From positions 1 to 47,741 of the forward strand of contig DYOR01000008.1 in the NCBI GenBank assembly GCA_020720385.1: a DNA stretch of 47,741 bases, given 5' to 3'. Numbering within the stretch: the stretch's first letter is position 1; each line of letters opens with the position of its first letter. This stretch comes from Rubrivivax sp. GTDB lineage: Bacteria; Pseudomonadota; Gammaproteobacteria; Burkholderiales; Burkholderiaceae_C. The notes beneath the pieces are model-generated. The model had not been told where the DNA came from. It ran no database searches and worked only from the letters and a program-made list of their open reading frames with translations. Below are positions 25,265 to 47,741 of this stretch, in pieces. Made by a program: the position numbers and the translations under genes.

Positions 25265-25828
25265 TCAAGCTCGGGCGCGCTGGCGCAGCACCTCGTCGAG
25301 CCACGCGGCCCAGGCCGCGGGCTCCACGGGCAACTGCGGGGCTTCGCCGACGAAGCGCTGCCAGGCCTGCAGGTGGCGCGGCGCCACCACGATGAGCACG
25401 GGAATCCCGCGCTCCAGCAGCGTCAGCAGTTCGGCGACGAAGCCGCCATTCTCCGCCTCCAGCGAACCGAAGCGGTTGCACACGACGAGGTCCGGCCGGC
25501 CCTGCGCGGCGTCGCGCAGCACCCGGCTGGCGCGCGCGAAGCCCTGCGGGTCGGCCTTGCACGCCCGCGAGTCCGTGCCCAGGCGCTGCGAGACGAGGTA
25601 CTCGTCGCCGCTGGCGATGTCGGTGAGCACGAGGTCGTCCTGGCAGCCCGCGCCGCGCTCGCGGTGCGTCATGAGCAGGCCGCGCACCTCGCGCCCCGCG
25701 GCGCGCTGGGCGCGGGCAAAGGTGTCGAGCAGGGCATCGACGTCGCTGTGCCCGTCGTGCACGATGGCGGCCACGGCGGGCGCTGCCGCGTCCTCGTGCA
25801 GTTCCTCGCGCAGGTCGTCCACGGCCAT
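25265..25828 (-). CDS. DUF2478-family protein
   Basis: AAIVHDGHSDVDALLDTFARAQRAAGREVRGLLMT, LVVCNRFGSLEAENGGFVAELLTLLERGIPVLIVV. Confidence 0.7.
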   Translation of the reverse strand: MAVDDLREELHEDAAAPAVAAIVHDGHSDVDALLDTFARAQRAAGREVRGLLMTHRERGAGCQDDLVLTDIASGDEYLVSQRLGTDSRACKADPQGFARASRVLRDAAQGRPDLVVCNRFGSLEAENGGFVAELLTLLERGIPVLIVVAPRHLQAWQRFVGEAPQLPVEPAAWAAWLDEVLRQRARA

Positions 25829-25836
25829 GCTGCGCC

Positions 25837-26709
25837 TCAGGTGCCCGCGACCCAGCGCTGCAGCGCCAGCGTAAGCACGAAGGCCCCCACCGCCAGCGCC
25901 GCCGGCAGGATCTGCCCAGCGCCCGCGAGCACGATGCCGTCGAGCACCGACATGCCGGCGATGAGCATGACCACGGCGCGCGGCACATCGCCCCGCGCGC
26001 GACGCCGCAGCAGGCCGAGCGCGAAGATCACCACCGCCTCGTAGAGCGCGAGCCAGGCCCAGACCACCGGACTGTGCATCGCCAGCGCAAAGCCGTACAC
26101 ACCCGGCAGCGCCAGGAAACCGAGCGGCCACAGGCTGCCGACGCGGCCCAGGTGTTCCTGCTTGGCGACGTAGGTGAGGCCGATGAGGTGGCACAGCAGG
26201 GCGATCGCCGCGAGGACCACCGCGGTCGGCAGCGCCACGCTCACACTGAACGCTGCCGTGAGCACCACCAGCACGCGACAAAGACCCATCACCAGCGGGC
26301 TCAGCGGGTTGCCCTTGTGGTGTGCGTTGTAGTAGACGATGGCCGCGGCCAGAGCCGCGCCCGACGCCAGCGCGCGCCAGGCGGGCAGGCCGTCCGCGGC
26401 GCGGCTGGCCACGGCCACGCCCGCCAGCCCCAGCGCCAGCAATCCGAAGCCGATGACGAAGACCTGCTGCGCCGAGACCTGGCCCGAAGGAATCGGCCGC
26501 TCCGGGCGATGCCGGGCGTCGAACTCGCGGTCGAAGGCGTCGTTGAGGAACATCCCCCCCACGTAGAACAGCGACAGTGCGAGCATCAGCAGGGGCAACC
26601 GCACATCGGCCAGGCCGCCGCCGGCGAGCAAGGCGCCCACGAGGACGTTGCTCCAGACGGTGGGCAGGTTGGAGATGCGTCCGAGCCGCAGGGCAAGCGT
26701 GAGGTTCAA
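25837..26709 (-). CDS. eboC: EboC, UbiA-family prenyltransferase-like membrane protein
   Basis: LRLGRISNLPTVWSNVLVGALLAG, FLNDAFDREFDARHRPERPIPSG (NDxxDxxxD), VYYNAHHKGNPLSPLVMG; TTG start overlapping eboE stop. Confidence 0.87.
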   Translation of the reverse strand: MNLTLALRLGRISNLPTVWSNVLVGALLAGGGLADVRLPLLMLALSLFYVGGMFLNDAFDREFDARHRPERPIPSGQVSAQQVFVIGFGLLALGLAGVAVASRAADGLPAWRALASGAALAAAIVYYNAHHKGNPLSPLVMGLCRVLVVLTAAFSVSVALPTAVVLAAIALLCHLIGLTYVAKQEHLGRVGSLWPLGFLALPGVYGFALAMHSPVVWAWLALYEAVVIFALGLLRRRARGDVPRAVVMLIAGMSVLDGIVLAGAGQILPAALAVGAFVLTLALQRWVAGT

Positions 26710-27908
26710 GGGGCGAGTTCCGTTCGTACCCAATCCAGTTCGCGCGCCACCGCCTCGTCCACTGCACCATGGCGATGGGGCTCGGGCAGCACCTCCCAAG
26801 TGTAGGTCTCGACCTCCAGGTGCGCCGACACCGGCTGCACGCGGTGCAGGGCCAGCACCTCGCGGATGAAGGACTGCGTCGAGAGGAAGGGCGCCAGGCG
26901 TTCGAGGAAGATCGGCACATGGAAGTGCACGCGCCACTCCAGCCCCCGGGTGTCGGCCGGCAGCGCCGCCAGGGCCGCGGGCAGGTCGGCAAAGCGCGCC
27001 AGCCCACCCCCCGGCCCGCGCTGCACCACCTGATGCAGGTACACCGCATCGTCGAAGCGCCGCAGCGCCTGCAGCGCCGGGGCATCCAGCGTGGGCAGGT
27101 GCAGGCCGGCGCTGATCTGCATCTTGAGCACGCGAATGCCTGCCTCGGCGAGCCGGCGGATGCCTTCGGCGGGTTCCTCGAACTCCACCGCGGCGTGGCA
27201 CAGGTCCAGGCACACGCCGAGGTGCTCGTGCAGGGCGCGCGCGGCCGCGTCGCGGTCCAGGGCGGTGAGATGCATCAATCGGCGCACGGCGGCGGGGCCG
27301 TGCAGCTCGTGCGCGAAGAACTCGACGAGCTCGGCGATGGTCTCCAGGAAGCAGTGCGGTTCGGGCTCCAGCGCCAGGGTCACCACCCGCCCCGTGCGCG
27401 CGCGCAAGCCCACCAGGTGCGCCACGTGGCGCAGCAGGTGCTCGACCATGAGCGCCACGTCGCCAGTCCCGCCCAGCGCGGGCTTGAAGGCGCCGGGCAC
27501 GCTGCTCACGCTGCCCTCGAGCGCCGGGTCGGCGGGCAGCAGCGCCGCCAGCAGATCGGCCAGCTGGTCGGTGTAGCGCAGCCGCTCGGGGTCGCGCCAG
27601 TCGGGCAGGTACACGCCTTCCTTCACGCGCTGGCCGTGGAAGCTGCCGTAGGGGAAGCCGTTGAGGGTGAAGACGTAGAGGCGATGGCGCGCGAGGAAGG
27701 CGCGGAACTCCGCCAGCACCGCGGGCGCGGACAATTCCGCCGCCGCCCGTGCCGACAGGCGCAGGCCGAGGCCGAAGTCGCCCGCGGGGTGCACGCGCTC
27801 GCGCACGGCGAGCATGTGTCTTTCGACATTGGCGCGCACCTCGGCCCAGGACTCGCCGGGGTGGATGTTGCTGCAGTAGGTGAGGTGGACGCCGCCGCCC
27901 AGGTTCAC
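26706..27908 (-). CDS. eboE: EboE, TIM-barrel (xylose isomerase-like) metabolite traffic protein
   Basis: VHLTYCSNIHPGESWAEVRANVERHM, RLYVFTLNGFPYGSFHG, VKEGVYLPDW, LALEPEPHCFLET, GVCLDLCHAAVEFE; GTG start. Confidence 0.9.
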   Translation of the reverse strand: MNLGGGVHLTYCSNIHPGESWAEVRANVERHMLAVRERVHPAGDFGLGLRLSARAAAELSAPAVLAEFRAFLARHRLYVFTLNGFPYGSFHGQRVKEGVYLPDWRDPERLRYTDQLADLLAALLPADPALEGSVSSVPGAFKPALGGTGDVALMVEHLLRHVAHLVGLRARTGRVVTLALEPEPHCFLETIAELVEFFAHELHGPAAVRRLMHLTALDRDAAARALHEHLGVCLDLCHAAVEFEEPAEGIRRLAEAGIRVLKMQISAGLHLPTLDAPALQALRRFDDAVYLHQVVQRGPGGGLARFADLPAALAALPADTRGLEWRVHFHVPIFLERLAPFLSTQSFIREVLALHRVQPVSAHLEVETYTWEVLPEPHRHGAVDEAVARELDWVRTELAP

Positions 27909-29116
27909 ACGCCCTGCTCCCGCTGCCGCAGCCACGCCAGCGCACGCAGGATCGCGTCGGTGTCCATCTCGTGGACCTCTTCGCCCACGCCGATGTCGCG
28001 CAGCAGCGTGATGGTGAGCTCGCCGCCAAGGTGCTCGCGGAACTCCTTGAGCCCGCGCAGCAGCAGCCACTGGCCGTCGGCATCGCGGGCTTCGAGCGCC
28101 GGGTGCCAGAGGTCGAAGCCCAGGCGCTCGAGCAGGGCGCACACGCGCTCTTCGCCGCCCGCAGGGAGCATGCGCGCCTGCACCGAGTAACGCGCGTCCA
28201 GCGCCAGGCCGATGGCCACCGCCTCGCCGTGGCGCAGCTCGTGGTCGGTGAGCGCCTCCAGGCGGTGGGCGGACCAGTGGCCGTAGTCCAGCGGGCGCGC
28301 GCTGCCGGTCTCGAAGGGGTCGCCACCGTGCGCGATCTGGTGCATGTGCAGCTCGGCGCAGCGGCGGATCATGTGGCCCATGGCGGCGGCGTCGCAGGCG
28401 CGCAGCGCCGCGGCACTGGCCTCCATCCACTCGAAGAACTCGCGGTCGCGGATGAGCGCCACCTTCACCGCCTCGGCCACGCCGGCGATCTTGTCGCGCG
28501 GCTGCAGCGTGTGCAGGAAAGCGGAGTCGTTGAGCACTGCGAAGGGCGGCGCGAAGCTGCCCAGCAGGTTCTTCACGCCGAAGGCGTTGACGCCGTTCTT
28601 CACCCCCACGCCGGAGTCGTTCTGTGCCAGCACCGTGGTGGGCACGCGGATGTGGCGCACGCCACGGTGCGTGGTCGAGGCAGCATAGCCGATGAGGTCG
28701 AGGAACGCGCCGCCGCCGATGCCGACGACGAAGGAATGCCGGTCCAGGCCCAGCGCCACCAGCCGGCGCTGCAGCTGCGTGAGCAAGGCCGGGTCGTTCT
28801 TCACCTGCTCGCCGCCGGGAACGGTGTCGGGGTGGGCCAGGATCTCCATCGCCTGGCCATGCTGCCGCGCATAGGCCTCGATGTCGTCGGCCAGCGCAGG
28901 GAACGCCGCCGCCACCTCGGCGTCGATGAAGGCGGCGAAGCGATGGCGCTTGCCCGGTTCACGGCGCAGCAGGGTGTCGCGGAAGACCAGGTTGTCGAGC
29001 GCGAAGAGGTGCTCGGTGAACCACACGGCGAAGTCGTAGTGCACCGAGAAGGACTGCTCGTAGACGGCGGAACGCCTTTCGCTGCGGTGCGGTGCGGTGA
29101 TGATCTCGGCTCTCAC
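27905..29116 (-). CDS. eboD: EboD, 3-dehydroquinate synthase/sugar phosphate cyclase family
   Basis: GGEQVKNDPALLTQL, FVVGIGGGAFLDLIGYAASTTHRGVRHIRVPTTVLAQNDSGVGVKNGVNAFGVKNLLGSF, LDYGHWSAHRLEALTDHELRHGEAVAIG; GTG start. Confidence 0.9.
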   Translation of the reverse strand: MRAEIITAPHRSERRSAVYEQSFSVHYDFAVWFTEHLFALDNLVFRDTLLRREPGKRHRFAAFIDAEVAAAFPALADDIEAYARQHGQAMEILAHPDTVPGGEQVKNDPALLTQLQRRLVALGLDRHSFVVGIGGGAFLDLIGYAASTTHRGVRHIRVPTTVLAQNDSGVGVKNGVNAFGVKNLLGSFAPPFAVLNDSAFLHTLQPRDKIAGVAEAVKVALIRDREFFEWMEASAAALRACDAAAMGHMIRRCAELHMHQIAHGGDPFETGSARPLDYGHWSAHRLEALTDHELRHGEAVAIGLALDARYSVQARMLPAGGEERVCALLERLGFDLWHPALEARDADGQWLLLRGLKEFREHLGGELTITLLRDIGVGEEVHEMDTDAILRALAWLRQREQGV

Positions 29117-29153
29117 GGAAACGGCACTCCTGTGCGGGTGGGCTGGGCTCGCC

Positions 29154-30080
29154 CTACTTGATCGCCACGGCGGCGACGGGCCGGGCGCTCTCGGGCAGCG
29201 TGCCCACGCGCGGCTCCTGCCCGCGCAGCACGGTGTTGCCCTCGAAGAGGCCGCGTTGGTCGACGATCTCGCCGGCCAGCCAGTGCGACTCCTGCATCTG
29301 GCCGCTCTGGCCGTAGGCGGCCAGCGCGTTGCCGTAGCAGGTGGCCTCGACGTCCTGGCGCGCGATGCCGCGCTCGAGCATGAGCTGCGCCGTGCGCGGC
29401 ACGGCCAGCGGATCGGACACGCCCCAGTCGGCGCTGGAGTCGACGATGATGCGCTCCGAGCCGTACTGGCGCACGATCTCGACCATGCGCTCGCTGCCCA
29501 TCTTGGTGTTCGGATACAGGGTGAAGCCGGCCCAGAAGCCGCGCTCGAGCACGTCGTGCACGGTTTCCTCGTTGTTGTGGTCGATGACCACGCGGCCCGG
29601 CGCCATGCCCATCTCGACGGCAACGTCCATGCTGCGCACGGTGCCCGCCCTCTTGTCGCGGTGCGGCGTGTGCACCATCACCAACATGTCGAACTCCAGC
29701 GCCAGCGCCAGCTGCGCGCGGTAGTACTTGTCCTCCAGCGCGCTGCCGTCGTCGTAGCCGATCTCGCCCACCGCCACCACGCCTTCCTTGGACAGGTAGC
29801 GCGGCAGGATGTCCATCACCGCTTCGGCCAGGGCCTCGTTGTTGGCCTCCTTGCTGTTCAGGCCGATGGTGCAGTAGTGGCGGATGCCGAACTGCGAGGC
29901 GCGGAAGCGCTCCCAGCCGACGATGCTCGAGAGGTAGTCGATGTAGCTGCCGATGTTCGTGCGCGGCTGGCCGAGCCAGAAGGCCGGTTCGATGACGGCC
30001 ACGATGCCGGCGGCCTTCATGCGTTCGTAGTCGTCCGTGGTGCGCGACGACATGTGGATGTGCGGGTCGATGAAGCGCAT
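29154..30080 (-). CDS. eboB: EboB, TatD-like metal-dependent hydrolase
   Basis: MRFIDPHIHMSSRTTDDYERM, VGEIGYDDGS, MVHTPHRDKR, IIVDSSADWGVSDPLAV. Confidence 0.9.
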   Translation of the reverse strand: MRFIDPHIHMSSRTTDDYERMKAAGIVAVIEPAFWLGQPRTNIGSYIDYLSSIVGWERFRASQFGIRHYCTIGLNSKEANNEALAEAVMDILPRYLSKEGVVAVGEIGYDDGSALEDKYYRAQLALALEFDMLVMVHTPHRDKRAGTVRSMDVAVEMGMAPGRVVIDHNNEETVHDVLERGFWAGFTLYPNTKMGSERMVEIVRQYGSERIIVDSSADWGVSDPLAVPRTAQLMLERGIARQDVEATCYGNALAAYGQSGQMQESHWLAGEIVDQRGLFEGNTVLRGQEPRVGTLPESARPVAAVAIK

Positions 30081-30097
30081 GCGCCTTCTCCTTGCGG

Positions 30098-30976
30098 TCA
30101 GTTGAATTCGAATTCGAGCACCGATTTCCAGTCGACATCATGCGCGGCCACGGCATCCCGCAAGGCCGCATGGTGGTCGAGGAGTCGGCGCGCCTCGGGG
30201 CCAGGAGCGTGGCGCAGCGCCAGCACGGCCGCGGCACGCTCCGCGGGCGTGCCCGTGTCGAGCACGCGGGCCAGGTCCGCGAGCAAGGCGCCGCTGGCGA
30301 ACGGCCCCACGCAGCGCCACAGCTCCGGGCTCACCGGCCGGCCGGCCGACCAGCGCTCGTGCGCGTAGTCGCCGAGCATGCGCGCCAGCGTGGCGTTGGC
30401 GCGGCGGTCCAGGCCGACGATGGGCCACAGCAGGCTGCCCACGAACAGCGCCTTGAGCACCATCTGGTTCCAGGCCTCTTCAGGCAGCTGCTCGGCCGCA
30501 TAGGGGTTGTGCAGGGCCACCGCCTCGAAGACCACGCGCATGTTCGTGCGCACGCCCTCGGCCGCACGCAGGCGGTGCCGCGGCGCATCCGGGTAGAGCG
30601 GCAGGCCGCGGTAGAACGCCACCAGCTCGTCGACGTCGGCGGTGGCGCAGAGCTGGTCGAGGCGGCGCACGAAGGTGTCGCTGTCGTGGTCGCTGTCGGA
30701 TTCGGCAGCGAGCAGCAAGCGGACGCGCGCAGCCTCGTCGACCGTCAGCGGCGAGGGGTCCCAGCCCGGCCGCGCGTCCTCGGCCATGGCGATCTCGGCC
30801 ATGTCGAGCTCCAGCGGCGCCTTGCCTAGCTTGCGCGCCACCAGGCTCACGCTGCGAAAGAGGTCGCGATCCGTGCCCCCGCCCGCCAGGCTCGCCACGC
30901 ACTCGCGCAACCACTGGGCGCCGGCGGCGCCCAGGCGCCGGTCCAGCCAATGCTGCAAAACCGTCTCGGGGGTCAT
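30098..30976 (-). CDS. eboA: EboA-like protein
   Basis: Position in ebo cluster; MTPETVLQHWLDRRLGAAGAQWLRECV..., FEAVALHNPYAAEQLPEEAWNQMVLKALFVG. Confidence 0.8.
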   Translation of the reverse strand: MTPETVLQHWLDRRLGAAGAQWLRECVASLAGGGTDRDLFRSVSLVARKLGKAPLELDMAEIAMAEDARPGWDPSPLTVDEAARVRLLLAAESDSDHDSDTFVRRLDQLCATADVDELVAFYRGLPLYPDAPRHRLRAAEGVRTNMRVVFEAVALHNPYAAEQLPEEAWNQMVLKALFVGSLLWPIVGLDRRANATLARMLGDYAHERWSAGRPVSPELWRCVGPFASGALLADLARVLDTGTPAERAAAVLALRHAPGPEARRLLDHHAALRDAVAAHDVDWKSVLEFEFN

Positions 30977-31010
30977 GCCCTGCCCTTTCGCCATGCCGGG
31001 TGTCGTGGGT

Positions 31011-32390
31011 TCATGCGGCGCCCTCGAAGAGGTGGTCGAGCAGCAACTGCTTCACCGCCGCGGCCGGCACCGGCCCGTCGGCGAGCAGCCCCGGCGCCGT
31101 GGTGATGAACAGCGGGCCGTCCTCGGGTCGGTCGGTGGGGCGGCCGTGCGAGCCGCGCACCACCGTCGCATCCAGGCCGATGACGTCCATCAGGTAGCGC
31201 ATCCCCAGCGCCTTGCGTGCCAGCCGCGACGCCACGGCGAGCTTCGGAAACCGTATCTTGGGGTCGATGAACAACTCGACCGGGTCGTAGCCGGGCTTGC
31301 GGTGGATGTCCACCGTGCGCGCGAAGTCGGGTGCGCGCTCGTCGTCGAGGAAGTGGTAGTAGGTGAACCAGCTGTCGGCCTGGGCCACGGCGACGAGTTC
31401 GCCCGAGCGCGCATGGTCCAGCCCGGCCGCGCGCTTGCCGGCTTCGTCGAGCACCGTCTCCACGCCAGGCAGGGCCTTCAGGCACGCCGCCACCTCGGGC
31501 AGCAGCTCCGGCCGCGCGACATACACATGGGCGATCTGGTGGTCCGCCACGGCGAACGCGTCCGAGGCGCCGGCATCGAGTTGCTCGCGGCCGCGCTCGA
31601 CGCGCACCTTGAGCCAACCGGCCTGGCGCAGCGCGCGGTTCACGTGCACCGGGCGCGAGACCTCGGTGATGCCGTACTCGGACAGCACGACCACGTGCGC
31701 GCCGAGCTCGCGCGCCTTGGCGATGAGCGGCGCGCACAGCGCATCCACCGCCGCCACCTGCGCCGGGATGCCCGGGTGGTTCGGACCGAAACGCTGCAGG
31801 TCGTAGTCCAGGTGCGGCAGGTAGACCATGGTCAGCGTGGGCCGCTGGTGATGCAGCACATGCAGCGCGCTTTGCGCGATCCAGCGGCTGGAGGCAATGT
31901 CGGCGCCGGGTCCCCAGAACCTGAAGAGCGGAAACTCGCCCAGCGCGTCCTGCAGTTCGTCGCGCAGCGACGCCGGGTGCGTGTGGATGTCGGGCAGCTT
32001 GCGGCCGTCGGCCAGGTACATGGGACGCGGCGTGACGGCGTAGTCCACGCTGGCGTACATGTTGTACCACCAGAAAAGTTGTGCGCAGCTGAAGTTCGGG
32101 TCGCGCCGCTTCGCCGCCTCCCACACCTTCTCGCCTTGCACCAGGCGGTTGGACTGACGCCACAGCCAGATCTCCGAGAGGTCGCGGAAGTACCAGCCGT
32201 TGGCGACGATGCCGTGCTCACGCGGCGGCGCGCCCGTGAGCATGGTCGACTGCACCGTGGTGGTGACGGCCGGCAGCACGGTGGCCAGGGGGCGCACCGC
32301 GCCGGCCTGCGCCAGCGCGCGCAGCTGCGGCGCATGCGCGAGCAGCGCGGGCGTGAGCCCCACGACGTTGAGCACGAGGGTTGGCGTCAC
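31011..32390 (-). CDS. eboF: EboF-like alkaline phosphatase/type I phosphodiesterase-nucleotide pyrophosphatase
   Basis: VLNVVGLTPALLAHAPQLRAL, PAVTTTVQSTMLTGAPPREHGIVANGWYFRDL, VVVLSEYGITEVSRPVHVNRALR, GSHGRPTD. Confidence 0.85.
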   Translation of the reverse strand: MTPTLVLNVVGLTPALLAHAPQLRALAQAGAVRPLATVLPAVTTTVQSTMLTGAPPREHGIVANGWYFRDLSEIWLWRQSNRLVQGEKVWEAAKRRDPNFSCAQLFWWYNMYASVDYAVTPRPMYLADGRKLPDIHTHPASLRDELQDALGEFPLFRFWGPGADIASSRWIAQSALHVLHHQRPTLTMVYLPHLDYDLQRFGPNHPGIPAQVAAVDALCAPLIAKARELGAHVVVLSEYGITEVSRPVHVNRALRQAGWLKVRVERGREQLDAGASDAFAVADHQIAHVYVARPELLPEVAACLKALPGVETVLDEAGKRAAGLDHARSGELVAVAQADSWFTYYHFLDDERAPDFARTVDIHRKPGYDPVELFIDPKIRFPKLAVASRLARKALGMRYLMDVIGLDATVVRGSHGRPTDRPEDGPLFITTAPGLLADGPVPAAAVKQLLLDHLFEGAA

Positions 32391-32673: not shown

Positions 32674-35115
32674 TCACCGCCGGCGCCAGCGTTGCAGCAC
32701 CCGGGTGAGCCCACCCGCACCGAGCCGCGTGCGGTCGACCAGCACCCCGGCGAGAAAGAGCGCCAGGCCCAGCGCCAGCAGCGAGCGGTCGAGCGGGCGG
32801 CGCACCGGCGGCGCGCCTTCGTCTCGGCTCAGCCAGCGCGGGTCCCAGTCACGCGTGAGCCCGGCGCCGCGCCAGGCCGCCAGGTCCGGGCTCGTGCCCC
32901 AGCCCTGGCTCTCGGCGCGCTGGCGCCGCAGATGCAGGCGCCGCTCGCTGCCCTGCGCCGTGGTGACGAGCAAGGTATACAAGCCGGGCCCCGCATCGGG
33001 CAAGGCCGCCCCCACCCGACCCGGGGCCAGCGGCTCCGCAGCCAGGCTGTAGGACTGCGCCGCAGGCGTGTTCACGGCGACGGCCACGCGGCCCGCAGCG
33101 GGCATGCCTGGCGACGCCTGTGCTGGCACATCGGCCTCGACGCGCAACGCGCCCGGCAGGTCAGACACCGCCAACCCCCGCACGTCGCCAGCGCCAGCGA
33201 CCCACTCGGTCAGGCCACCGGCCAGCCGCGGCCACTCGCGCCAGGCCGGCCATTGCGGGGTCCAGCGCCCGAGCCCGCAGGTGACGGCAACGACGCGGCC
33301 GCGCCCCGCGCCCTGGTACGCGATCAGCGGTTCGCCTTGTGCGCTCTGCACCGCCACCGTGGCCGCGGCGCGCGCGCGCGTCACCGCATGCGCCGCCACC
33401 GTGGGCCAGCCCTGCAGCCGGGCGGGCGCAAAGGGCAGCGCCTGGGCCTGCTCCACGGCGATCGTGCCACGCGCGACGCGCGCGCGGCGGCGCTCGAGCC
33501 CCGCGCGCATCACCTGCGGCAACTCGGCGGCCTCGTTCACGCGCAGCACCAGGCCCTGCGCGCCGAGGAAACGCTGCAGCGCGGCGGCATCGGCCTGCGG
33601 CCCCACGGCCAGGGCAATCGTCTCGATGCGCGCGCGCTCCAGCCGCGCGCGCAGGTCGGTGAGCGGAGCGCCCTCGACGAAGCCGTCGGTGACGAGGACG
33701 AGCATGCGCCGCGCTGCCCCGGCGCGCTCGAGCTCCCCGATCGCCTCGGCCAGCGCCGGTGCCAGGCGCGTGCCACCGCCCGGCGTCGCCTTCCAGTCGC
33801 GCTCCAGCGCCAACATCCCGCCCGCCGCCGGACCGAGCGGGACGAGCACCCGCGGCGCCACGTCGAAGACCATGAGGCCCAGCGCATCGCGCGGCGTGAG
33901 GCCGCGCGCGGTCTCGACCACCGCGCGCTGTGCCAGCGCAAAGCGGTCGACCCCGCCGCTGCCCTGGCCCATGCTGCCGGACTTGTCGACGGCGAAGACG
34001 ACGCTCAGCGGCTGATCCAGCGCTGCGGGCTCCGAGGTCACCGGCAGGATGGCCTCGAGCGCCGAGCCTCGGTAACCACCGCGCGCAAACGCACGCTCGC
34101 CACCCAGCACCATGAGGCCCAGGCCGCGCTCCTGCACGGCGGCCACCAGCGCCTGCCAGAACCGCGGCCCGGCGTCGCTGACCGCCACGTCGTCGAGGAC
34201 CACCGCCTGGTAGGCCTCCAGGGCGTCGGCATGCGCGTCCAGGCGCGCCGCGGGAACCGCCTCCAGGCGCCAGCCGCCACGCTGCAGGCTGCGCGCCAGC
34301 ACCCCACCCGACCCCTGCGCATAGAGGATGGCCGCGGGCGGGACGATGTCGACCACGGCGGCGTCGGCAAAGGCGTCCAGCGTGCGGCCGGTCGCCAGTT
34401 CCTCCAGCGCCACGTCGACGACGAGCGCGCCGCCGCGGCCGGCGTCGAGGTCGAGCGTGACGCGGCTCGCGCCGGCGGCGTCGCGGCTGGTGCTTTGCGT
34501 CTCGCCGCTGGGGGTGCGCGCACTGGCCTTGACGCGCAGTGCCGGCCCGAGCTGCCCCGCCAGCTGCACTGTGATCTCGAGGCGCTGGCCGACCCGTGCA
34601 CGCTGCGGCGCGAGGACTTCGACAATGCGCGTCGGCGGCGGCGCGCGGCCCACGGCGACCCACGGCAGCGGCCCCTGCGCCGCGTGCACGGCACGCAGTG
34701 CGCGCGGCGTATCGCCGGCGTTGGCCAGGCCGTCCGAGATCATCACCAGGTGGTCGAACGCCGCCTGCGACCTTGCCGCCAAGGCGGCGTCGAGTGCCGC
34801 CTCGATGTTCGTCACCGCGGGCGCGAGATCCACGGCGGCAGCGCCCGCCCCGGTCGACGGCAGGGCCGCGCGGCCGGCGAATTCGAGTCGCTGGATCTCG
34901 CCCACGCCGGCAGAGCGCGCCGCCTGCACGACATCGCCCAAGGCCTTGTCGGCCGCCGCGCGCGGCACGCTGTCCGAACGGTCCACGAGCACCAGCAGGC
35001 GCGGCCGGCTGCGCGCATCGAGCCACGCGCTGCCGAGCAGCGCCAGGCCGAGCACCGTCAGCGCCAGCCCTTGCAGTACCAGCGCGACCACGGTGCGCGT
35101 GCGCTGCGTGTTCAC
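32674..35115 (-). CDS. VWA-domain protein with GATase1-like region, membrane anchored at both ends
   Basis: LLVLVDRSDSVPRAAADK, VFAVDKSGSMGQGSGGVDRFALAQ (MIDAS), GLGLMVLGGERAFARGGYRGSALEAILPV, C-terminal TM; GTG start overlapping upstream stop. Confidence 0.85.
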   Translation of the reverse strand: MNTQRTRTVVALVLQGLALTVLGLALLGSAWLDARSRPRLLVLVDRSDSVPRAAADKALGDVVQAARSAGVGEIQRLEFAGRAALPSTGAGAAAVDLAPAVTNIEAALDAALAARSQAAFDHLVMISDGLANAGDTPRALRAVHAAQGPLPWVAVGRAPPPTRIVEVLAPQRARVGQRLEITVQLAGQLGPALRVKASARTPSGETQSTSRDAAGASRVTLDLDAGRGGALVVDVALEELATGRTLDAFADAAVVDIVPPAAILYAQGSGGVLARSLQRGGWRLEAVPAARLDAHADALEAYQAVVLDDVAVSDAGPRFWQALVAAVQERGLGLMVLGGERAFARGGYRGSALEAILPVTSEPAALDQPLSVVFAVDKSGSMGQGSGGVDRFALAQRAVVETARGLTPRDALGLMVFDVAPRVLVPLGPAAGGMLALERDWKATPGGGTRLAPALAEAIGELERAGAARRMLVLVTDGFVEGAPLTDLRARLERARIETIALAVGPQADAAALQRFLGAQGLVLRVNEAAELPQVMRAGLERRRARVARGTIAVEQAQALPFAPARLQGWPTVAAHAVTRARAAATVAVQSAQGEPLIAYQGAGRGRVVAVTCGLGRWTPQWPAWREWPRLAGGLTEWVAGAGDVRGLAVSDLPGALRVEADVPAQASPGMPAAGRVAVAVNTPAAQSYSLAAEPLAPGRVGAALPDAGPGLYTLLVTTAQGSERRLHLRRQRAESQGWGTSPDLAAWRGAGLTRDWDPRWLSRDEGAPPVRRPLDRSLLALGLALFLAGVLVDRTRLGAGGLTRVLQRWRRR

Positions 35116-37641: not shown

Positions 37642-37660
<19 letters not shown>
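36683..37660 (-). CDS. DUF58-domain protein
   Basis: RRPGIGLQHLDHRDYTPGDEVRHIDWRQTARSRRTVVRRFEAESVADWTVLVDASSSM; N-terminal start uncertain (repeat-derived sequence). Confidence 0.87.
37595..37641. repeat. C-run/G-run hairpin element embedded at DUF58 5' end
   Basis: gaaccccca-aagggggcgggccggctcgggccggacc-tgggggtcc, near-perfect outer inverted repeat. Confidence 0.45.
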
Positions 37661-38642
<982 letters not shown>

Positions 38643-38643
<1 letters not shown>

Positions 38644-39785
38644 CAGCGACGCGCGCTCGCTTTCATCCATGCTTGTACATAGCTCGTTTCGGTAGGAGTC
38701 AGCCGCGTGGTGTCGGTGGCCGCAGGAGGGGTCGCCGCCGCCGCGGCCGGACCCTCCCCGCCGGCTGCGGCGGCACGCAGCGGGAGTTCATCGTCGTACC
38801 GGGCCTGCTGCTCCCTGTCGGCCCGCCGGCCGCTAGCCGGATGATGCAGCCCCGAGGTCGATCTTTGCACGGGCATCGTACCGCCCTGGGCACGCGAAAC
38901 GCCAACATCGGCACGCAGGTCGGGGCTGTCGCCGGCCTCGCGGCCCGTGCTCGCGCCGGCGCTATGTGCGGCGGCATCTGCGGCAGCGGCAGCGGCGGGG
39001 GCCGTGGCCGCTGCCGCCCGGCCTGCCGGGGGTTGGCCCGGCGGCGCGGCCCCCGGCTCGGTCGCCCGCGTGGGCGAGGCGTCTTCGGCGCGGCTGGTCG
39101 CGGCCGCCGGCGCGCGCCCTCCCTCGCCACGGCCGAACTCCGCCTCGGCATCGGCATCGGCCTGCGCCGCGCGCAGCACGCTTTCGATCTGGCTCAGCTG
39201 TGGCGCCGGCCCGCTTGCCTGCGCCAGCGGCGCGGCAGGCTCGGCGCCGGGCGATGCCGCAGGCGCGCTCGCTGGCGGCGCGGGAGTGGGGGAGGGGGCG
39301 AGCTGCGGCAAGGTGAGCACGAGCGTGGCCAGGGCTGTGCACGCCGCCATCGACAGCAGCGGCCGGAACAGGTGTGCCGGTGCGGGCCGCTCGGCGAGCA
39401 GGCGCAGGCTCGCCGGCACGCGCTCGCTCGCCCAATGTCCGAGCCAGCGCACGGCCGCCGCGTCGGCCCCCGCCGGTGCTGGCGCCATCTCGAGCCAGGT
39501 GCTGAAGGCGGAGGTGCCGCCGAGGTGACGGTCGGCCCAGAGCGCGCAGGCGGCATCGGTGGGCCGGCGCGCAGCGGTCCAGGCCAGGCTCGCCCCCCAC
39601 AGCAGGGCCGCTATCCCGGCCAGGGCCTCGACGCTGACCGGCCTCAGCGCCGCGTGCACCAGCGCGGCCAGCAGCGCCAAGCCCGCCGTGCCCCAGGCGG
39701 CGCGGCGCACGGCGGCGCCGAGCTGCAACCACCACAGACGGCGCCGCACCGCCGCCAGCAGGGTCCGCACGCCGGGAGCAGCCAT
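38643..39785 (-). CDS. Membrane protein with Ala/Pro-rich low-complexity C-terminal region
   Basis: MAAPGVRTLLAAVRRRLWWLQLGAAVRRAAWGTAGLALLAALVHAAL N-terminal TM segments; coupled to MoxR gene. Confidence 0.7.
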
Positions 39786-41736: not shown

Positions 41737-42834
41737 TCACTTGAGCGCGTGCTCGAGGGCGATCACCGACCACGCCGTGACAAGCTGCGGCCGGTCTTCC
41801 CACCAGGCCTTCGAGTCCGGGTTGGCCCAGCTGCCGTCGGCGGCCTGCAGGCTGGTCAGTTTCTGCGCGAGCTCGATCTTCCAGTTGTGCCGCTGGCCCT
41901 TGGCGTCGGTGAAACTGTCCTCGCCATAGGCCTTCATGACCTTGGCGAAGGCGTTGTAGAAGTAGAAGATGCCGTGCTTCTTGTTCGTGCCGGGGTTGGC
42001 CTCGAGCGTGTAGTTCGCCGTCATCCACTTGTAGGCGGCCTGTACGCGCGGGTCGTTCTTGTCGGCCCCGGCGAAGAGCAGGCCGAGCAGGCCGGCGGCA
42101 GTCATGCCACCGTAGGACGAGGTCGCGCTGGCCGCAGGGAACTCGAACTCGGGCGGGTTCCAGCCCGGCATGTAGACGAAGCCGCCATCGTTGCCGGCCC
42201 ATTTCTGGTCGTTGCTTTCGCTGCGGTTCTGCGTGCGATTCACGAACACCAGGGCCTTCTGCCAGACCGGATCCTTGGGGTCGGTGGCGGTGGCCTTCAG
42301 CCCCTCCAGCGCGAGGTAGACGTTGGACATGTCGGGGCGCTCGTCACCGCCGTAGCCTATGCCACCGTAGTAGCGGTGGTCCTTCTGGTAGCCCTCGGCC
42401 TCGTCGATCTGGTGGCTGGTGAGGAATTTTTGCGCCGCGCTGATCACTGGCGCGTACTTCGGGTTCTTGGTCGCGGCCAGTGCGATCATCGCCACCGAGG
42501 TGTTGTAGCTGAGGTTCTGCAACGACTCGCTGATCGCGCCGTCGCTCCTGGCTTTGGAAAGCAAGTACTCGACCTGCTTCGTGATGAAGGCACCGTCGCC
42601 CTCGTTGTAGCCGCGATGGCTCTCCAGGAAGGCACGCAGGCTCAGCGCGGTAATGCCCGCCGAGCGCGCCACCGAGCCGTCGGCCGCTTGCTGCGTGCGC
42701 AGGTAGTTCAAGCCGGCGTCGACCGCGCGACGTGCCTTTTCGCGCAGCGCCGGGTCCATGGCTTCGGCGGCATGCGCGGCCGGCACGGCCAGCATCGTGC
42801 TGCTCACGAGGGCCAGGAAGTGTCGCTTCAACAT
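41737..42834 (-). CDS. Secreted prenyltransferase/squalene-oxidase-repeat (alpha/alpha toroid) protein
   Basis: Signal peptide; repeats AVDAGLNYLRTQQAADGSVARSAGITALSLRAFL, LTSLQAADGSWANPDSKAWWEDRPQLVTAWSVIAL. Confidence 0.85.
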   Translation of the reverse strand: MLKRHFLALVSSTMLAVPAAHAAEAMDPALREKARRAVDAGLNYLRTQQAADGSVARSAGITALSLRAFLESHRGYNEGDGAFITKQVEYLLSKARSDGAISESLQNLSYNTSVAMIALAATKNPKYAPVISAAQKFLTSHQIDEAEGYQKDHRYYGGIGYGGDERPDMSNVYLALEGLKATATDPKDPVWQKALVFVNRTQNRSESNDQKWAGNDGGFVYMPGWNPPEFEFPAASATSSYGGMTAAGLLGLLFAGADKNDPRVQAAYKWMTANYTLEANPGTNKKHGIFYFYNAFAKVMKAYGEDSFTDAKGQRHNWKIELAQKLTSLQAADGSWANPDSKAWWEDRPQLVTAWSVIALEHALK

Positions 42835-42862: not shown

Positions 42863-43615
42863 TCAAGGTGCGTTCGAAGGCTCGCCCGCGCTGCGCCGCA
42901 GGCAAGCCGACCGCTCGGTCAGTACCAGCAGCGCGGTCACGGCCACGGCCAGCCCATAGCCGGGCAGCAGCAGCCGCAGGCCAGGGTAGTCGAAGGGTAA
43001 CGCGGCGAGGTTGGCGTGCTGATAGAACCACTGGTTGCGCAGCAGGTCGTTGCCGCTGGCCACGGCCAGATGGGTCAGCGGGCTGATGCCGAGCAGGACG
43101 TCGATGAGCCACGGATGGCGGTCCGAGAGCAGTTCGCCCGCGGGCCCGAGCCACAGCGGCAGCGCCCCCAGCAGTGCGAGCGTGCCCGCCACCACGCGGC
43201 CAGCCAGCTCGCGGGCACCCACGGCGACCATCGCCGATCTCGCCCCTGGCGCGGCCGCGGCGCGTCTCATGAGCAGGCCTTCGAGCCAGGCTGCCAGCGC
43301 ATGCGCCGGCAGCAGCATGAGCAGCAGCATCGCGCAGCTCGCCAGCACCTGCGCCAAGGGCTGCGGCGGGTTGCCAAGCATGGTCAGCATGATCGCGGCC
43401 AGCCCCGCGGCGGTGGCTGACCAGGCAGCGACGCGCAACGTGGTGCGCACCGGCGAGGCGGCGCATCCCGGCCAGAACAGCACGGCGAGCAGGCCAAAAA
43501 CGGCGGCGACCATCACGCGCAGCGCGGACGGCTGCAACTCGCCGCCGACAGCGCCAAGCGCCACCAGCACCAGCAGGCTGGCCACGAGCAGCATCGCACC
43601 GCGCCAGGCGATCAC
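42863..43615 (-). CDS. Polytopic membrane protein, unknown function
   Basis: VIAWRGAMLLVASLLVLVALGAVGG...; GTG start overlapping upstream stop. Confidence 0.65.
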   Translation of the reverse strand: MIAWRGAMLLVASLLVLVALGAVGGELQPSALRVMVAAVFGLLAVLFWPGCAASPVRTTLRVAAWSATAAGLAAIMLTMLGNPPQPLAQVLASCAMLLLMLLPAHALAAWLEGLLMRRAAAAPGARSAMVAVGARELAGRVVAGTLALLGALPLWLGPAGELLSDRHPWLIDVLLGISPLTHLAVASGNDLLRNQWFYQHANLAALPFDYPGLRLLLPGYGLAVAVTALLVLTERSACLRRSAGEPSNAP

Positions 43616-44358
43616 TTGGCAGCGCGCGCGGCTTCGACGATCAGCTCGATCGCCGAGCCGACCGGGGGCAGCATCGCGTGGCCGCGCACCGAGCCATAGG
43701 CGCCGATGCCTATGCCCACGGCCGACTGGATGACGTTGTTCTCGTCGGGCTTGAAACCCACCAGCGTGCCGGTGACATCGGCGGCAAAGACCGCGCCCTG
43801 CGACGCCGGCGCCCCGATGTAGACCCACTCGACGGACTCCGGCTTGGCGTCGGCCTCCGGGTTGAGCATCGCCTGCGCCGCCGTCACCTGGCGCCTCTTG
43901 CCGGCGTCCACCCAGGCCACGGAGATGGCGACGCGCGGGCCGATCAAGGGGGCCTGCATGTCCTGGCGGTGCGCCGCCACCGTGCGCGGGTCGCGCTCCA
44001 GGCCGATGAGGATGCAGGCGAGGTTGAACTCGCTGCCCGTGGCGTCGAGCTCGAAAAGCGTCTCGTAGGCCTTCGCGCCGCCCGGGCTGGTGGCCAGGTA
44101 CTCGAGCGGTTTGCCGGTGACGTGCACGCGGCCCGGCACGCTGAAGCGTCCGGCGCCCTTGTCGACGACGATGCGCCCGACCTGGAAGCGATCGGGGCCG
44201 AGTTGCTTGAGTTCGCCCACCGGCGATGCGGGAGAGGCTGGCGACGATGGCGTCGCTGGCGTCGCTGGTGGCAGCGCCGGCGATTGCGCACGGGCCCAGC
44301 CGGCGCAGGCGGCCGCGGCGCAGCCGAGTGTGGCGAGCAGACCTTGGCGGCGCTTCAC
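43612..44358 (-). CDS. YdjY-domain-like secreted protein
   Basis: Signal peptide; DRFQVGRIVVDKGAGRFSVPGRVHVTGKPLEYLATSPGGAKAYETLFELDATGSEFNLACILIGLE. Confidence 0.72.
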   Translation of the reverse strand: MKRRQGLLATLGCAAAACAGWARAQSPALPPATPATPSSPASPASPVGELKQLGPDRFQVGRIVVDKGAGRFSVPGRVHVTGKPLEYLATSPGGAKAYETLFELDATGSEFNLACILIGLERDPRTVAAHRQDMQAPLIGPRVAISVAWVDAGKRRQVTAAQAMLNPEADAKPESVEWVYIGAPASQGAVFAADVTGTLVGFKPDENNVIQSAVGIGIGAYGSVRGHAMLPPVGSAIELIVEAARAAK

Positions 44359-45377
44359 GGCTTGACCCCCATGACCACGCGGTGCGGCATGGGTGGCGGC
44401 AGCGGCAGAGTGCGCAGCTCGCGCAGGCCGGCGTCCTTCATCCAGCGCATCACCTCGGCATCCGCATGCACGCCGCCGTCGGGCGCGGTGAGCATCATGT
44501 TCAGGCCGAACAGGGTGGCGAAGGCCGGCTGCGTGCCGCCCTCGTCGGTGAAGACGTCGCTGACCACGAGCAGGCCGCCGGGCTCGAGGCAGGCCACGGC
44601 GCGTTCGACGAGGCCGCGGCAGGCGGCGGCCGATTCGCGATGGAACATGCCCGACATGAGCACCACGTCCTTGCCCGTGCCGAAATCGGCACTGTGATAG
44701 TCGCCGTCGCGCAGGCTCACGCGCTCGCTCGCCCCGGCGGCGGCGACGAGCTCACGCGCCACCGCGGCCACACCGGGCAGCTCCAGCACCTCGGACTCGA
44801 GGCCCGGGAAACGCTCGGTGAGCAGCACCGAGTACGTGCCCGGCCCGCCGCCGACGTCGAGCATGGCGCGCCGGCCGCTCAGGTCGAGCAGGGGGACGAG
44901 CGCGCGCGCGATGCCCAGGGCGCGCTCGTGCATGGCGATGACGAAACCGCGCGTGCGTGCCGGGTCGTCGCCCAGGTAGGTCTCGGCAGGCAGCGCCGGC
45001 TGGCCCGAGCGCAGCGCGCCCTCGAGCTGGCCCCAGGTGGCGTAGAGCTGGTCGCTGTAGCGGATGACGTTGCCCATGTAGGCGGGGCTGCGCGAGACGA
45101 GAAAGGTGGCCGCCAGCGGCGCGTTTTCGAAGCGGCCGTCGCGTTCCACGAGAAAGCCCAGGCCGGCGCAGGCGCGCAGGAAGAGCGCCGTGCTGCGCGC
45201 ATCGAGTTGCAGGGCAGCAGCGACTTCGTCGGCGCTGCGTGCGCCGTCGGCCAGGGCATCGAAAAGCCGCAGCCGGTTGGCGGTGAGCAGCGTCTGGCTC
45301 TCCCAGTACGCCGTGCTCAGGCGCACGATGGCCGTCGGGTCCGGGCGTGCAGCGGGGGCTTGCGCTGCGCTGCTCAT
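44355..45377 (-). CDS. SAM-dependent (O-)methyltransferase with winged-helix dimerisation domain
   Basis: TAYWESQTLLTANRLRLFDALADGARSADEVAAALQLD; AMLDVGGGPGTYSVLLTERFPGL motif I. Confidence 0.87.
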   Translation of the reverse strand: MSSAAQAPAARPDPTAIVRLSTAYWESQTLLTANRLRLFDALADGARSADEVAAALQLDARSTALFLRACAGLGFLVERDGRFENAPLAATFLVSRSPAYMGNVIRYSDQLYATWGQLEGALRSGQPALPAETYLGDDPARTRGFVIAMHERALGIARALVPLLDLSGRRAMLDVGGGPGTYSVLLTERFPGLESEVLELPGVAAVARELVAAAGASERVSLRDGDYHSADFGTGKDVVLMSGMFHRESAAACRGLVERAVACLEPGGLLVVSDVFTDEGGTQPAFATLFGLNMMLTAPDGGVHADAEVMRWMKDAGLRELRTLPLPPPMPHRVVMGVKP

Positions 45378-45522: not shown

Positions 45523-46761
45523 TCATGCGGTCACCCCCGCAGCCTGCCGATCGACGTCGCACTCGAGCTGCATGTAGGCGCAGCGGTGGCACATGAAGCC
45601 GTCGGCGACGGCCAGCCCGTGGCGCCGGCGTATCTCGTGGTAGCCGCTGACGAGCGTCTCGAAGTAGCTGCGGATGCGCGCGTGGTAGTCGGCGCGCTGG
45701 CGCCCGCCCACCGGCCAGACGATCGAATAGATGGGCAGGATGCCGCGGCTGCAGAGGTCTTCGGCGCCGGCCAGGGCGGTGCGCGCGGCCTCCTCCCATT
45801 CCATGCCGTACTCGGGGCCGAGCTCGATGCCCGCGACCATCGCCGAATAGACCTTGCCTCGGCCGAAGGTGCGCACCGCCGTCTCCAGCGAGGCGATCCA
45901 GCGCTCGTAGCCCACGTAGCGGTTCTTGCCCGGGCTGACCTTGGCGAACAGCGGCTCGGACCACATCTCGAGGTTGAAGCACACGTACTGCACGAGACCC
46001 TCGGCGTGGAACTGCGCGATCAGGTCGTCGGGGATGGCGCCGCTGCCCAGCGTCACTGGGATGCCGCGCGTGTTCACACCCTTCACGAAACGCGCCAGCT
46101 GCAGGAAGCGTTCGCCTTCCTTGCGCCAGTCGGTGAGCGAGCCGCCCACGAGGTAGATGTGGCGGATCTCGGCCTGCCCGAGCACGGCCTCGAGTGCCTC
46201 GTGCATGCGCTCGAGCGTGGGCTGCAGGATCTCCACCCGGCCCGTCACCTGCCCCAGGTGCTTGGTGCGTTCGTCGGGCGCGCCGTAGGCGCAGAAGGTG
46301 CAGCGCATGGAGTCGCCTTCATGCTTGTGCAGGAAGTACTCGCAGCCCGGGGCGACGTTGATGATGAGCATGTCACCATGCACCGTCAGGCCCGCCTGGG
46401 CGAACGGCATCCCGTCGCTCGTTTTCTGCGTCAACCAGGGCCGCAGCGGCTCGAAGCCGATCGCCACCTCGAGCCCACTGCGGTCGTCGATGAGCTGGTA
46501 GCCCTGCGCGGGGTCGCCTTCCACGTGCCAGGGTGAGTCGCCGTCGCCGAGGATGCGGATCTCGGTGCCGTCGGCGGTGTTGATGAGGTAGGGGATGGTG
46601 GCGATGCCGCGGCCCGTGGGATCGGGCTCCCCTTCCTTGAAGCGGTAGGGGTAGTAGTTGGGCATGGAGTGCGCGGCCGCCTGGCCCAGCGCGGGCGTGT
46701 AGCGTATGCCTTCGCACATCACCTGCACCTTCAGCGCTGGCGAACCGGTGAGCGTGGTCAT
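45523..46761 (-). CDS. Radical SAM protein with non-canonical Cx13Cx2C motif
   Basis: INVAPGCEYFLHKHEGDSMRCTFCAYGAP, HIYLVGGSLTD, C-terminal FMCHRCAYMQLECD. Confidence 0.8.
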   Translation of the reverse strand: MTTLTGSPALKVQVMCEGIRYTPALGQAAAHSMPNYYPYRFKEGEPDPTGRGIATIPYLINTADGTEIRILGDGDSPWHVEGDPAQGYQLIDDRSGLEVAIGFEPLRPWLTQKTSDGMPFAQAGLTVHGDMLIINVAPGCEYFLHKHEGDSMRCTFCAYGAPDERTKHLGQVTGRVEILQPTLERMHEALEAVLGQAEIRHIYLVGGSLTDWRKEGERFLQLARFVKGVNTRGIPVTLGSGAIPDDLIAQFHAEGLVQYVCFNLEMWSEPLFAKVSPGKNRYVGYERWIASLETAVRTFGRGKVYSAMVAGIELGPEYGMEWEEAARTALAGAEDLCSRGILPIYSIVWPVGGRQRADYHARIRSYFETLVSGYHEIRRRHGLAVADGFMCHRCAYMQLECDVDRQAAGVTA

Positions 46762-46856: not shown

Positions 46857-47474
46857 ATGCCACGCAGCCCCGGCCGTGCCGCGTTCATTATTGCCGCCTC
46901 CCTGTGTGTTCCGCTGCTGCCGTTCATCGTCATCGGCGAGCTGCCGGGCGAGCGCTGGCTCTCCGCCACCGACACCCATGCCCTGCGCTTCGCCCTCACC
47001 GGCGCGGGGCTGCTCGCGGCCGACGTGCTGCTGCCGATTCCGTCGAGCATCGTCGGCAGCATGCTCGGTGCGCGGCTGGGCTTCGGCGCGGGCTTTGCGG
47101 CGGCCTTCGCCGGCATGATGACGGGGCAATCGCTCGCCTATCTCGTCAGCCGCACGCTGCTGCGCCGTCGCAGCGGCGAGCTGCCCGCGGCGCCCACGCT
47201 GGCCGCCGTGTTCCTCAGCCGCCCGGTGCCGGTGCTGGCCGAGGCCGTGGCCATCGCCGCGGGTGCGGCGCGGCTGAGCTGGCCGCAGTTCCTGCTCGCC
47301 TGCGGCGCGGGCAACGCGGTCTACGCCGCTGCGCTGGCGCTCAACGGCGCGCAGCTCATGCCCGGTGCCCTCATCGGCCCCGGCCTGTTGCCGCCCATGC
47401 TGCTGCCGGTGGTGGCGTGGCTCGTCTGGCGCAGGTTTCGTCGCCCACCCCAAACCGGACAACCAGGAGATTGA
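46857..47474 (+). CDS. VTT/DedA (SNARE-associated)-like membrane protein
   Basis: LPIPSSIVGSMLGARLGFGAGFAAAFAGMMTGQSLAYLVSRTLLRR, SRPVPVLAEAVAIAAGAARLSWPQFLLACGAGN. Confidence 0.75.
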   Translation: MPRSPGRAAFIIAASLCVPLLPFIVIGELPGERWLSATDTHALRFALTGAGLLAADVLLPIPSSIVGSMLGARLGFGAGFAAAFAGMMTGQSLAYLVSRTLLRRRSGELPAAPTLAAVFLSRPVPVLAEAVAIAAGAARLSWPQFLLACGAGNAVYAAALALNGAQLMPGALIGPGLLPPMLLPVVAWLVWRRFRRPPQTGQPGD

Positions 47475-47479
47475 CCCCA

Positions 47480-47741
47480 TGCTGTTCATGCTCACCAATC
47501 GCACGCGCAAGGACCTGAGCGCGGACCAGTACGCCGAACTCGCCACGCTGGCCAAGGCCTTCTATGCCGCTATCCCGCCGGAGGTGAAGATCCGCGGCGA
47601 GTGGGCCGCCACCGACTACTCGAACAACTACTCGCTGCTCGAGGCGCCGGACATCGATACCGTGCGCCGCATCCAGGCGCCGTTCGCCAAGTTCACCGAG
47701 ACGCTGATCGTGCCGGTGACGGCGATTTCGGGGTGGACGGC
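47480..47741 (+). CDS. Hypothetical protein, truncated by right window edge (DUF3303-like fold guess)
   Basis: MLFMLTNRTRKDLSADQYAELATLAKAFYAAIPPEVKIRGEWAATDYSNNYSLLEAPDIDTVRRIQAPFAKFTETLIVPVTAISGW. Confidence 0.55.

Follow-up and report, generated by a model that had tools for sequence, protein, structure and literature searches.

Nostoc depends on the ebo genes to produce scytonemin, and Pseudomonas depends on them to repel nematodes. More than 150 microbes, algae among them, have the cluster, which in Nostoc serves to export the scytonemin monomer (PMC6282210); for the ebo cluster of eustigmatophyte plastids a secondary metabolite has been proposed (PMC5133447), and the Pseudomonas EDB cluster is linked by a review to indole production (PMC9655573). 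The passages searched in PMC6282210 and PMC5133447, like the other literature searched, make no mention of a radical SAM enzyme in ebo clusters. The stretch of Rubrivivax DNA analysed here (47,741 nt in all, hereafter the window) encodes EboA, EboB, EboD and EboE together with EboC-like and EboF-like proteins, but differs from the clusters as described there in that a radical SAM (rSAM) gene and a methyltransferase gene are attached to it, as is an isopentenyl-diphosphate (IPP) isomerase gene too in some species. The reading that we favour, at a probability of roughly 50%, is that the rSAM protein is a radical tailoring enzyme and acts jointly with the methyltransferase on an ebo metabolite that is linked to isoprenoids.

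An expanded spacing between the first two cluster-binding cysteines is also a feature of Elp3, which reads Cx9Cx2C according to an earlier note on this DNA. Elp3 resembles the rSAM protein of the window in this expansion, and neither an acetyltransferase domain nor an Elp3 match was found in the latter with Pfam and NCBIfam. QueE (7-carboxy-7-deazaguanine synthase) reads Cx14Cx2C, its cluster site being canonical apart from a single extended loop (PMC4389238); it resembles the rSAM protein in the Cys spacing only, and no QueE model was among the Pfam and NCBIfam matches up to E = 1. NitD/MSMEG_0568 (TIGR04043), which belongs to the Nit1C cyanide-assimilation cluster, has the same parent family, an expanded Cys motif and a Cys-rich C-terminus, but NitD-like relatives read Cx9CxxC, compared with a spacing of 13-14 here, and the gene neighbourhoods differ.

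Conserved cysteines and predicted fold of the rSAM protein

The rSAM open reading frame (ORF) is real and not a chance frame, because relatives (55-90% identity, nearly full length) are encoded at 23 public-genome loci and two same-genus genomes encode one at 81% identity. Carriers belong to Rubrivivax, Ideonella, other Burkholderiales, Gammaproteobacteria and one Thermoanaerobaculia. In one Rubrivivax assembly (G433), the rSAM gene, the methyltransferase and their neighbours are present in two copies (L012, L013). L007, which matches only in part (33%) within a frame of 211 aa, was not kept as a remote homologue, and a scan for promoters and terminators around the gene gave no signal above chance.

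The earlier note had described 13 residues between the first two cysteines of the cluster motif and a C-terminal Cx2Cx6C, and the ORF contains both exactly as described: the former lies in GCEYFLHKHEGDSMRCTFCAYG (C140-x13-C154-x2-C157) and the latter in FMCHRCAYMQLECD (C391-x2-C394-x6-C401). Eight cysteines are invariant in all 24 rows of the rSAM alignment (55-100% identity), namely C140, C154, C157, C261, C337, C391, C394 and C401; these include the six of the two motifs, and the first Cys is never lost. The suggestion that the C-terminal motif forms an auxiliary cluster is upheld as far as its invariance in the 24 rows is consistent with a putative cluster, which is retained as a candidate. 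The spacing of the first Cys is 13 throughout the clade except in L027, L028 and L036, where it is 14. On the other hand, the inserted His/Glu/Asp-rich loop, to which the note had drawn attention, does not hold up as a feature: its charged residues vary between relatives (LHKHEGDSMR, LHKQDGVSMR, LARQAGGGSMR, GERRDGGSMR), and only G149, S151 and R153 are invariant across the 24 rows; L036 carries Ala at 151. We therefore rejected the idea that the His/Glu/Asp residues of the loop matter for function, and because their content varies in this way the loop is unlikely to be a supplier of metal ligands.

An AlphaFold2 model computed from the 24-row alignment (pLDDT 89.1, pTM 0.87) comprises an extra N-terminal domain (residues 1-125), a strand (131-135), a loop with C140, C154 and C157, a helix (180-196), and then alternating strands and helices as far as residue 380. 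In the model the three cysteines sit, by topology, in the loop between strand 1 and helix 1, in agreement with the cluster-binding position proposed for the first Cys. The top 22 matches of the model in a Foldseek search of the PDB were all radical SAM enzymes, with lipoyl synthase, AprD4, BlsE, MiaB, viperin and Cfr at the head of the list. The best E was 4.5e-6; the TM-scores, which by target reached 0.58, are moderate and therefore fix the superfamily but not the reaction. Neither the protein sequence nor its profile found a match in sequence searches of the PDB. The radical SAM identity given in the note is confirmed both by these fold matches and by the NCBIfam model NF045502 variant_rSAM, which the protein passes with 142.3 bits (cut-off 125) and which matches 24/24 aligned rSAM sequences. 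As modelled, the protein is a true, if divergent, member of the radical SAM superfamily with a predicted partial or full TIM-barrel fold. Pfam's general model PF04055 Radical_SAM is matched at E <= 0.01 by 21/24 aligned sequences, and the window's protein scores just under its gathering cut-off (25.7 vs 29.5 bits). A degenerate fold that has lost SAM cleavage would account for this last score, but it is extremely improbable: across relatives of 55-90% identity the three proposed cluster ligands stay invariant or near-invariant, as do the motifs of the strands that usually contact SAM (LVGGS, CFNLE, AMVAGxE), and the protein scores above the cut-off of the full family model.

Placement within the NF045502 family

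Besides passing the curated cut-off, the rSAM protein resembles NF045502 variant_rSAM in its expanded first Cys spacing, and it shares with the relatives read a C-x-aromatic...CxFC segment and a PGK motif. The Cys spacing was surveyed in some 50 relatives, retrieved with NF045502 and with the rSAM protein as queries: it is 8 in L031 and the L078 group, 9 in the NitD-like and transporter-fused groups, 10-11 in most relatives from the phylum of G450, and 14 in L079. Because the sampled relatives all read Cx8-14CxxC, this suggests that the expansion is the norm of the parent family, as judged from the sequences of sampled members rather than from a published definition. The rarity that the note had ascribed to expanded motifs is not borne out by these relatives, nor by the published QueE motif.

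In a tree of 65 sequences, the rSAM family of the window forms one clade with 100/100 support on a long branch, and in this respect the earlier suspicion of a divergent family proved right. The nearest group consists of the spacing-8 rows (99/96), a join that is uncertain because the branches are long. The clade stands apart from the other sampled groups of NF045502 in its spacing of 13-14 and in its C-terminal Cx2Cx6C, which occurs only here among them; the NitD-like rows end in CGxCGxC, and no C-terminal Cys motif was seen in the last 60 residues of the spacing 10-11 group. The transporter-fused relatives (L093, L096-L111, L113-L116) combine a variant radical SAM domain (Cx9CxxC) with an SLC13-type sodium:sulfate/citrate transporter in one ORF of about 830-930 aa and are spread over many genomes, most of which belong to a single family (f227) in the phylum sample. 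The ORF of L093 is on the minus strand, with 830 aa read, and Pfam, which was run on this one only, matched PF00939 and PF03600 in it.

Score, tree position and spacing led us to reject an assignment to NitD/MSMEG_0568, by which the protein would act in a nitrile or cyanide-assimilation pathway. This is very improbable, even though TIGR04043 gives a weak match of 42 bits and NF045502 is the parent family of both: the score is far under the cut-off of 303.7, the fully supported clade lies away from the NitD-like rows, the spacing is not 9, both types coexist in G450, and no nitrilase is among the annotated neighbours, the window having long sequence on one side of the gene only.

A methyltransferase partner and the link to ebo

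The rSAM gene and the methyltransferase gene (Table 1) are a near-obligate pair. Neither this partner nor the tie to the ebo genes of the window had been noticed in the earlier note. The methyltransferase is present in 23/24 rSAM-carrying genomes and adjoins the rSAM gene at 21 loci; it is present but unlinked in G357 and G450 (51-52% identity), and no copy was found in G449, where the contig piece stops just past the rSAM gene. Ten genomes that lack the rSAM gene, among them five with ebo (G025, G059, G523, G455 and G614), were tested at E <= 1e-30, and it was detected in none of them. An FHRE segment, which falls at the usual O-methyltransferase general-base position, is kept in 21 of the 22 methyltransferase sequences and reads LHRE in the remaining one. 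The methylated atom is uncertain, because the closest solved structures include both S- and O-methyltransferases and the PDB entry that matches best in sequence (7wdq) is a DSYB-type S-methyltransferase.

Table 1. Features of the window (motif positions counted from 46761, where the ORF starts)
Feature	Position	Strand	Remark
EboC-like UbiA prenyltransferase (PF01040)	25837..26709	-	under EboC equivalog cut-off
EboE (NF035939)	26706..27908	-	454 bits vs cut-off 250
EboD, 3-dehydroquinate-synthase-like sugar phosphate cyclase (NF004852)	27905..29116	-	
EboB, TatD-like hydrolase (PF01026)	29154..30080	-	
EboA (NF035938 domain)	30098..30994	-	173 vs 50 bits
EboF-like phosphodiesterase / nucleotide pyrophosphatase (PF01663)	31011..32375	-	
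VWA-domain protein	32674..35115	-	homologues adjoin ebo genes in L062, L066, L067
MoxR / DUF58-like / VWA block	from the 37642..38670 gene to 32674	-	DUF58 name by resemblance
MoxR-type AAA ATPase	37642..38670	-	weak BchD/MadB matches; MoxR name by resemblance
Secreted-looking alpha/alpha-toroid protein, squalene-hopene cyclase C-terminal-like repeats	41737..42834	-	
YdjY-domain protein (NF040466)	43612..44358	-	
Methyltransferase with dimerisation domain (PF00891 + PF08100)	44355..45377	-	next gene downstream of rSAM
rSAM protein, 412 aa, variant_rSAM (NF045502) family	45523..46761	-	ATG start
Codons of C391-to-C401 (Cx2Cx6C), C-terminal, rSAM gene	45559..45591	-	
Codons of C140-to-C157 (Cx13CxxC), expanded cluster-binding motif, rSAM gene	46291..46344	-	
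VTT/DedA-like membrane protein	46857..47474	+	VTT match under cut-off; divergent, conserved neighbour
DUF3303 protein	47479..47741	+	divergent, conserved neighbour; runs past window end

Genes 25837-32375 are identified by their sequences as the ebo cluster, and about 11 kb of other genes lie between it and the rSAM module. The full cluster of this Rubrivivax-type genome is followed by a DUF2478 gene (window 25265-32375). EboE was found in 19 of the 24 distinct rSAM-positive genomes and, within the genus, in 3/3 with the rSAM gene vs 1/24 without it. In the order sample, 16/349 genomes encode EboE, and only one of the 16, the window's own, carries the rSAM gene (order members without it: 15/348). 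Because 15 of the 16 EboE-positive genomes lack it, the rSAM gene is an accessory and no standard part of the ebo cluster. EboE and the rSAM gene share a contig in 11 genomes, and in a twelfth (G357) EboD adjoins the rSAM gene; an IPP isomerase is often nearby in these genomes. Synteny among the Rubrivivax-type genomes partly reflects shared ancestry, synteny within the Burkholderiales is no independent evidence, and many of the assemblies surveyed are metagenome-derived.

The gene order varies among the linked loci. L064 reads rSAM, methyltransferase, YdjY, TonB receptor, type 2 IPP isomerase and EboF-A-B-D-E-C, and L063 reads rSAM, methyltransferase, type 1 IPP isomerase and EboA-B-F, with EboC-E-D opposite. 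EboD is divergent to the rSAM gene in L062 and L036, the former also having MoxR, DUF58-like and VWA genes alongside, and in L067 the YdjY, DUF3303 and toroid genes adjoin ebo and an IPP isomerase. In several lineages (L063, L066, L067, L020 and L120) the ebo genes have a type 1 or type 2 IPP isomerase gene next to them, the ebo cluster of L120 being without the rSAM gene; those of L063, L066, L067 and L020 pass equivalog cut-offs. Homologues of the methyltransferase, YdjY and MoxR were absent from the ebo stretches read in five rSAM-less genomes (L117-L121).

Neither EboE nor EboB was detected in five rSAM-positive genomes (G444, G445, G446, G449 and G450); therefore, either the module can exist without ebo or these assemblies are incomplete. 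The former would agree with a pair that makes or modifies its own small metabolite independently of ebo, the two merely sharing a genomic region in one bacterial group, as would the rSAM-methyltransferase-YdjY trios of L024, L025 and L026, which are without ebo and in two cases adjoin a TonB receptor. We regard this as possible but doubtful, in view of the direct ebo adjacency in three different gene orders (L062, L063, L064), the fact that ebo in L067 has YdjY, DUF3303 and toroid genes next to it, and the strong co-occurrence of rSAM and EboE at genus level. The TonB-dependent receptor directly downstream of rSAM-methyltransferase-YdjY (L020/L064:7622-9793, L025:11139, L026:11070) suggests uptake of a metal complex or product.

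Many radical SAM enzymes act on proteins, and the toroid and YdjY genes are frequent neighbours of the rSAM gene. The substrate could accordingly be a protein or peptide, such as the secreted-looking toroid or YdjY protein encoded nearby, and no small molecule. We consider this improbable: no RiPP or SPASM model of Pfam or NCBIfam matches the rSAM protein, and L023/L063 keep the methyltransferase and ebo genes without an adjoining toroid or YdjY gene. Large secreted-looking proteins are also encoded near rSAM/ebo (L064:1057-2664, L067:5990-7618 and further loci), with homologues in 12 of the loci searched; their C-termini resemble dockerin repeats, by eye only.

A proposed tailoring module for an ebo product

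Under the favoured reading of a radical tailoring enzyme, the rSAM protein would be catalytically competent and would cleave SAM reductively to 5'-deoxyadenosine. C140, C154 and C157 would bind the [4Fe-4S] cluster that cleaves SAM, at its usual place in the loop that follows strand 1 of the partial barrel, and C391, C394 and C401 would probably hold a second, three-Cys cluster, the open iron site of which may bind the substrate or serve the reaction. Together with the neighbouring methyltransferase, the enzyme could work as a tailoring module that, in most lineages, modifies an isoprenoid-linked small molecule derived from the Ebo proteins, its makers presumably being the EboD sugar phosphate cyclase, the EboC prenyltransferase and EboA/B/E/F. 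The radical step would install or expose a group, which the methyltransferase would then cap. Whether the genomic linkage of rSAM and ebo amounts to a shared pathway is a matter of about even odds. A more specific version, in which an undescribed variant of the ebo pathway uses a two-cluster rSAM enzyme and a methyltransferase to remodel a prenylated, cyclitol-type lipid, is offered only tentatively; if it is true, the ebo product would be reachable via a derivative that radical modification and methylation make chemically distinctive.

The expanded motif itself is already known, as it is covered by the named family NF045502 and has a parallel in QueE at a spacing of 14 (PMC4389238). For radical SAM enzymology, the survey suggests that Cx8-14CxxC, with its variable spacing, is what one normally finds in a large family to which Pfam's general model responds only weakly. 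What is new is that a subset of ebo clusters has a putative tailoring pair of rSAM enzyme and methyltransferase attached to it, and isoprenoid enzymes nearby. The ties of the rSAM enzyme, the methyltransferase and the IPP isomerases to ebo point to an isoprenoid-linked, methylatable molecule and provide a testable handle.
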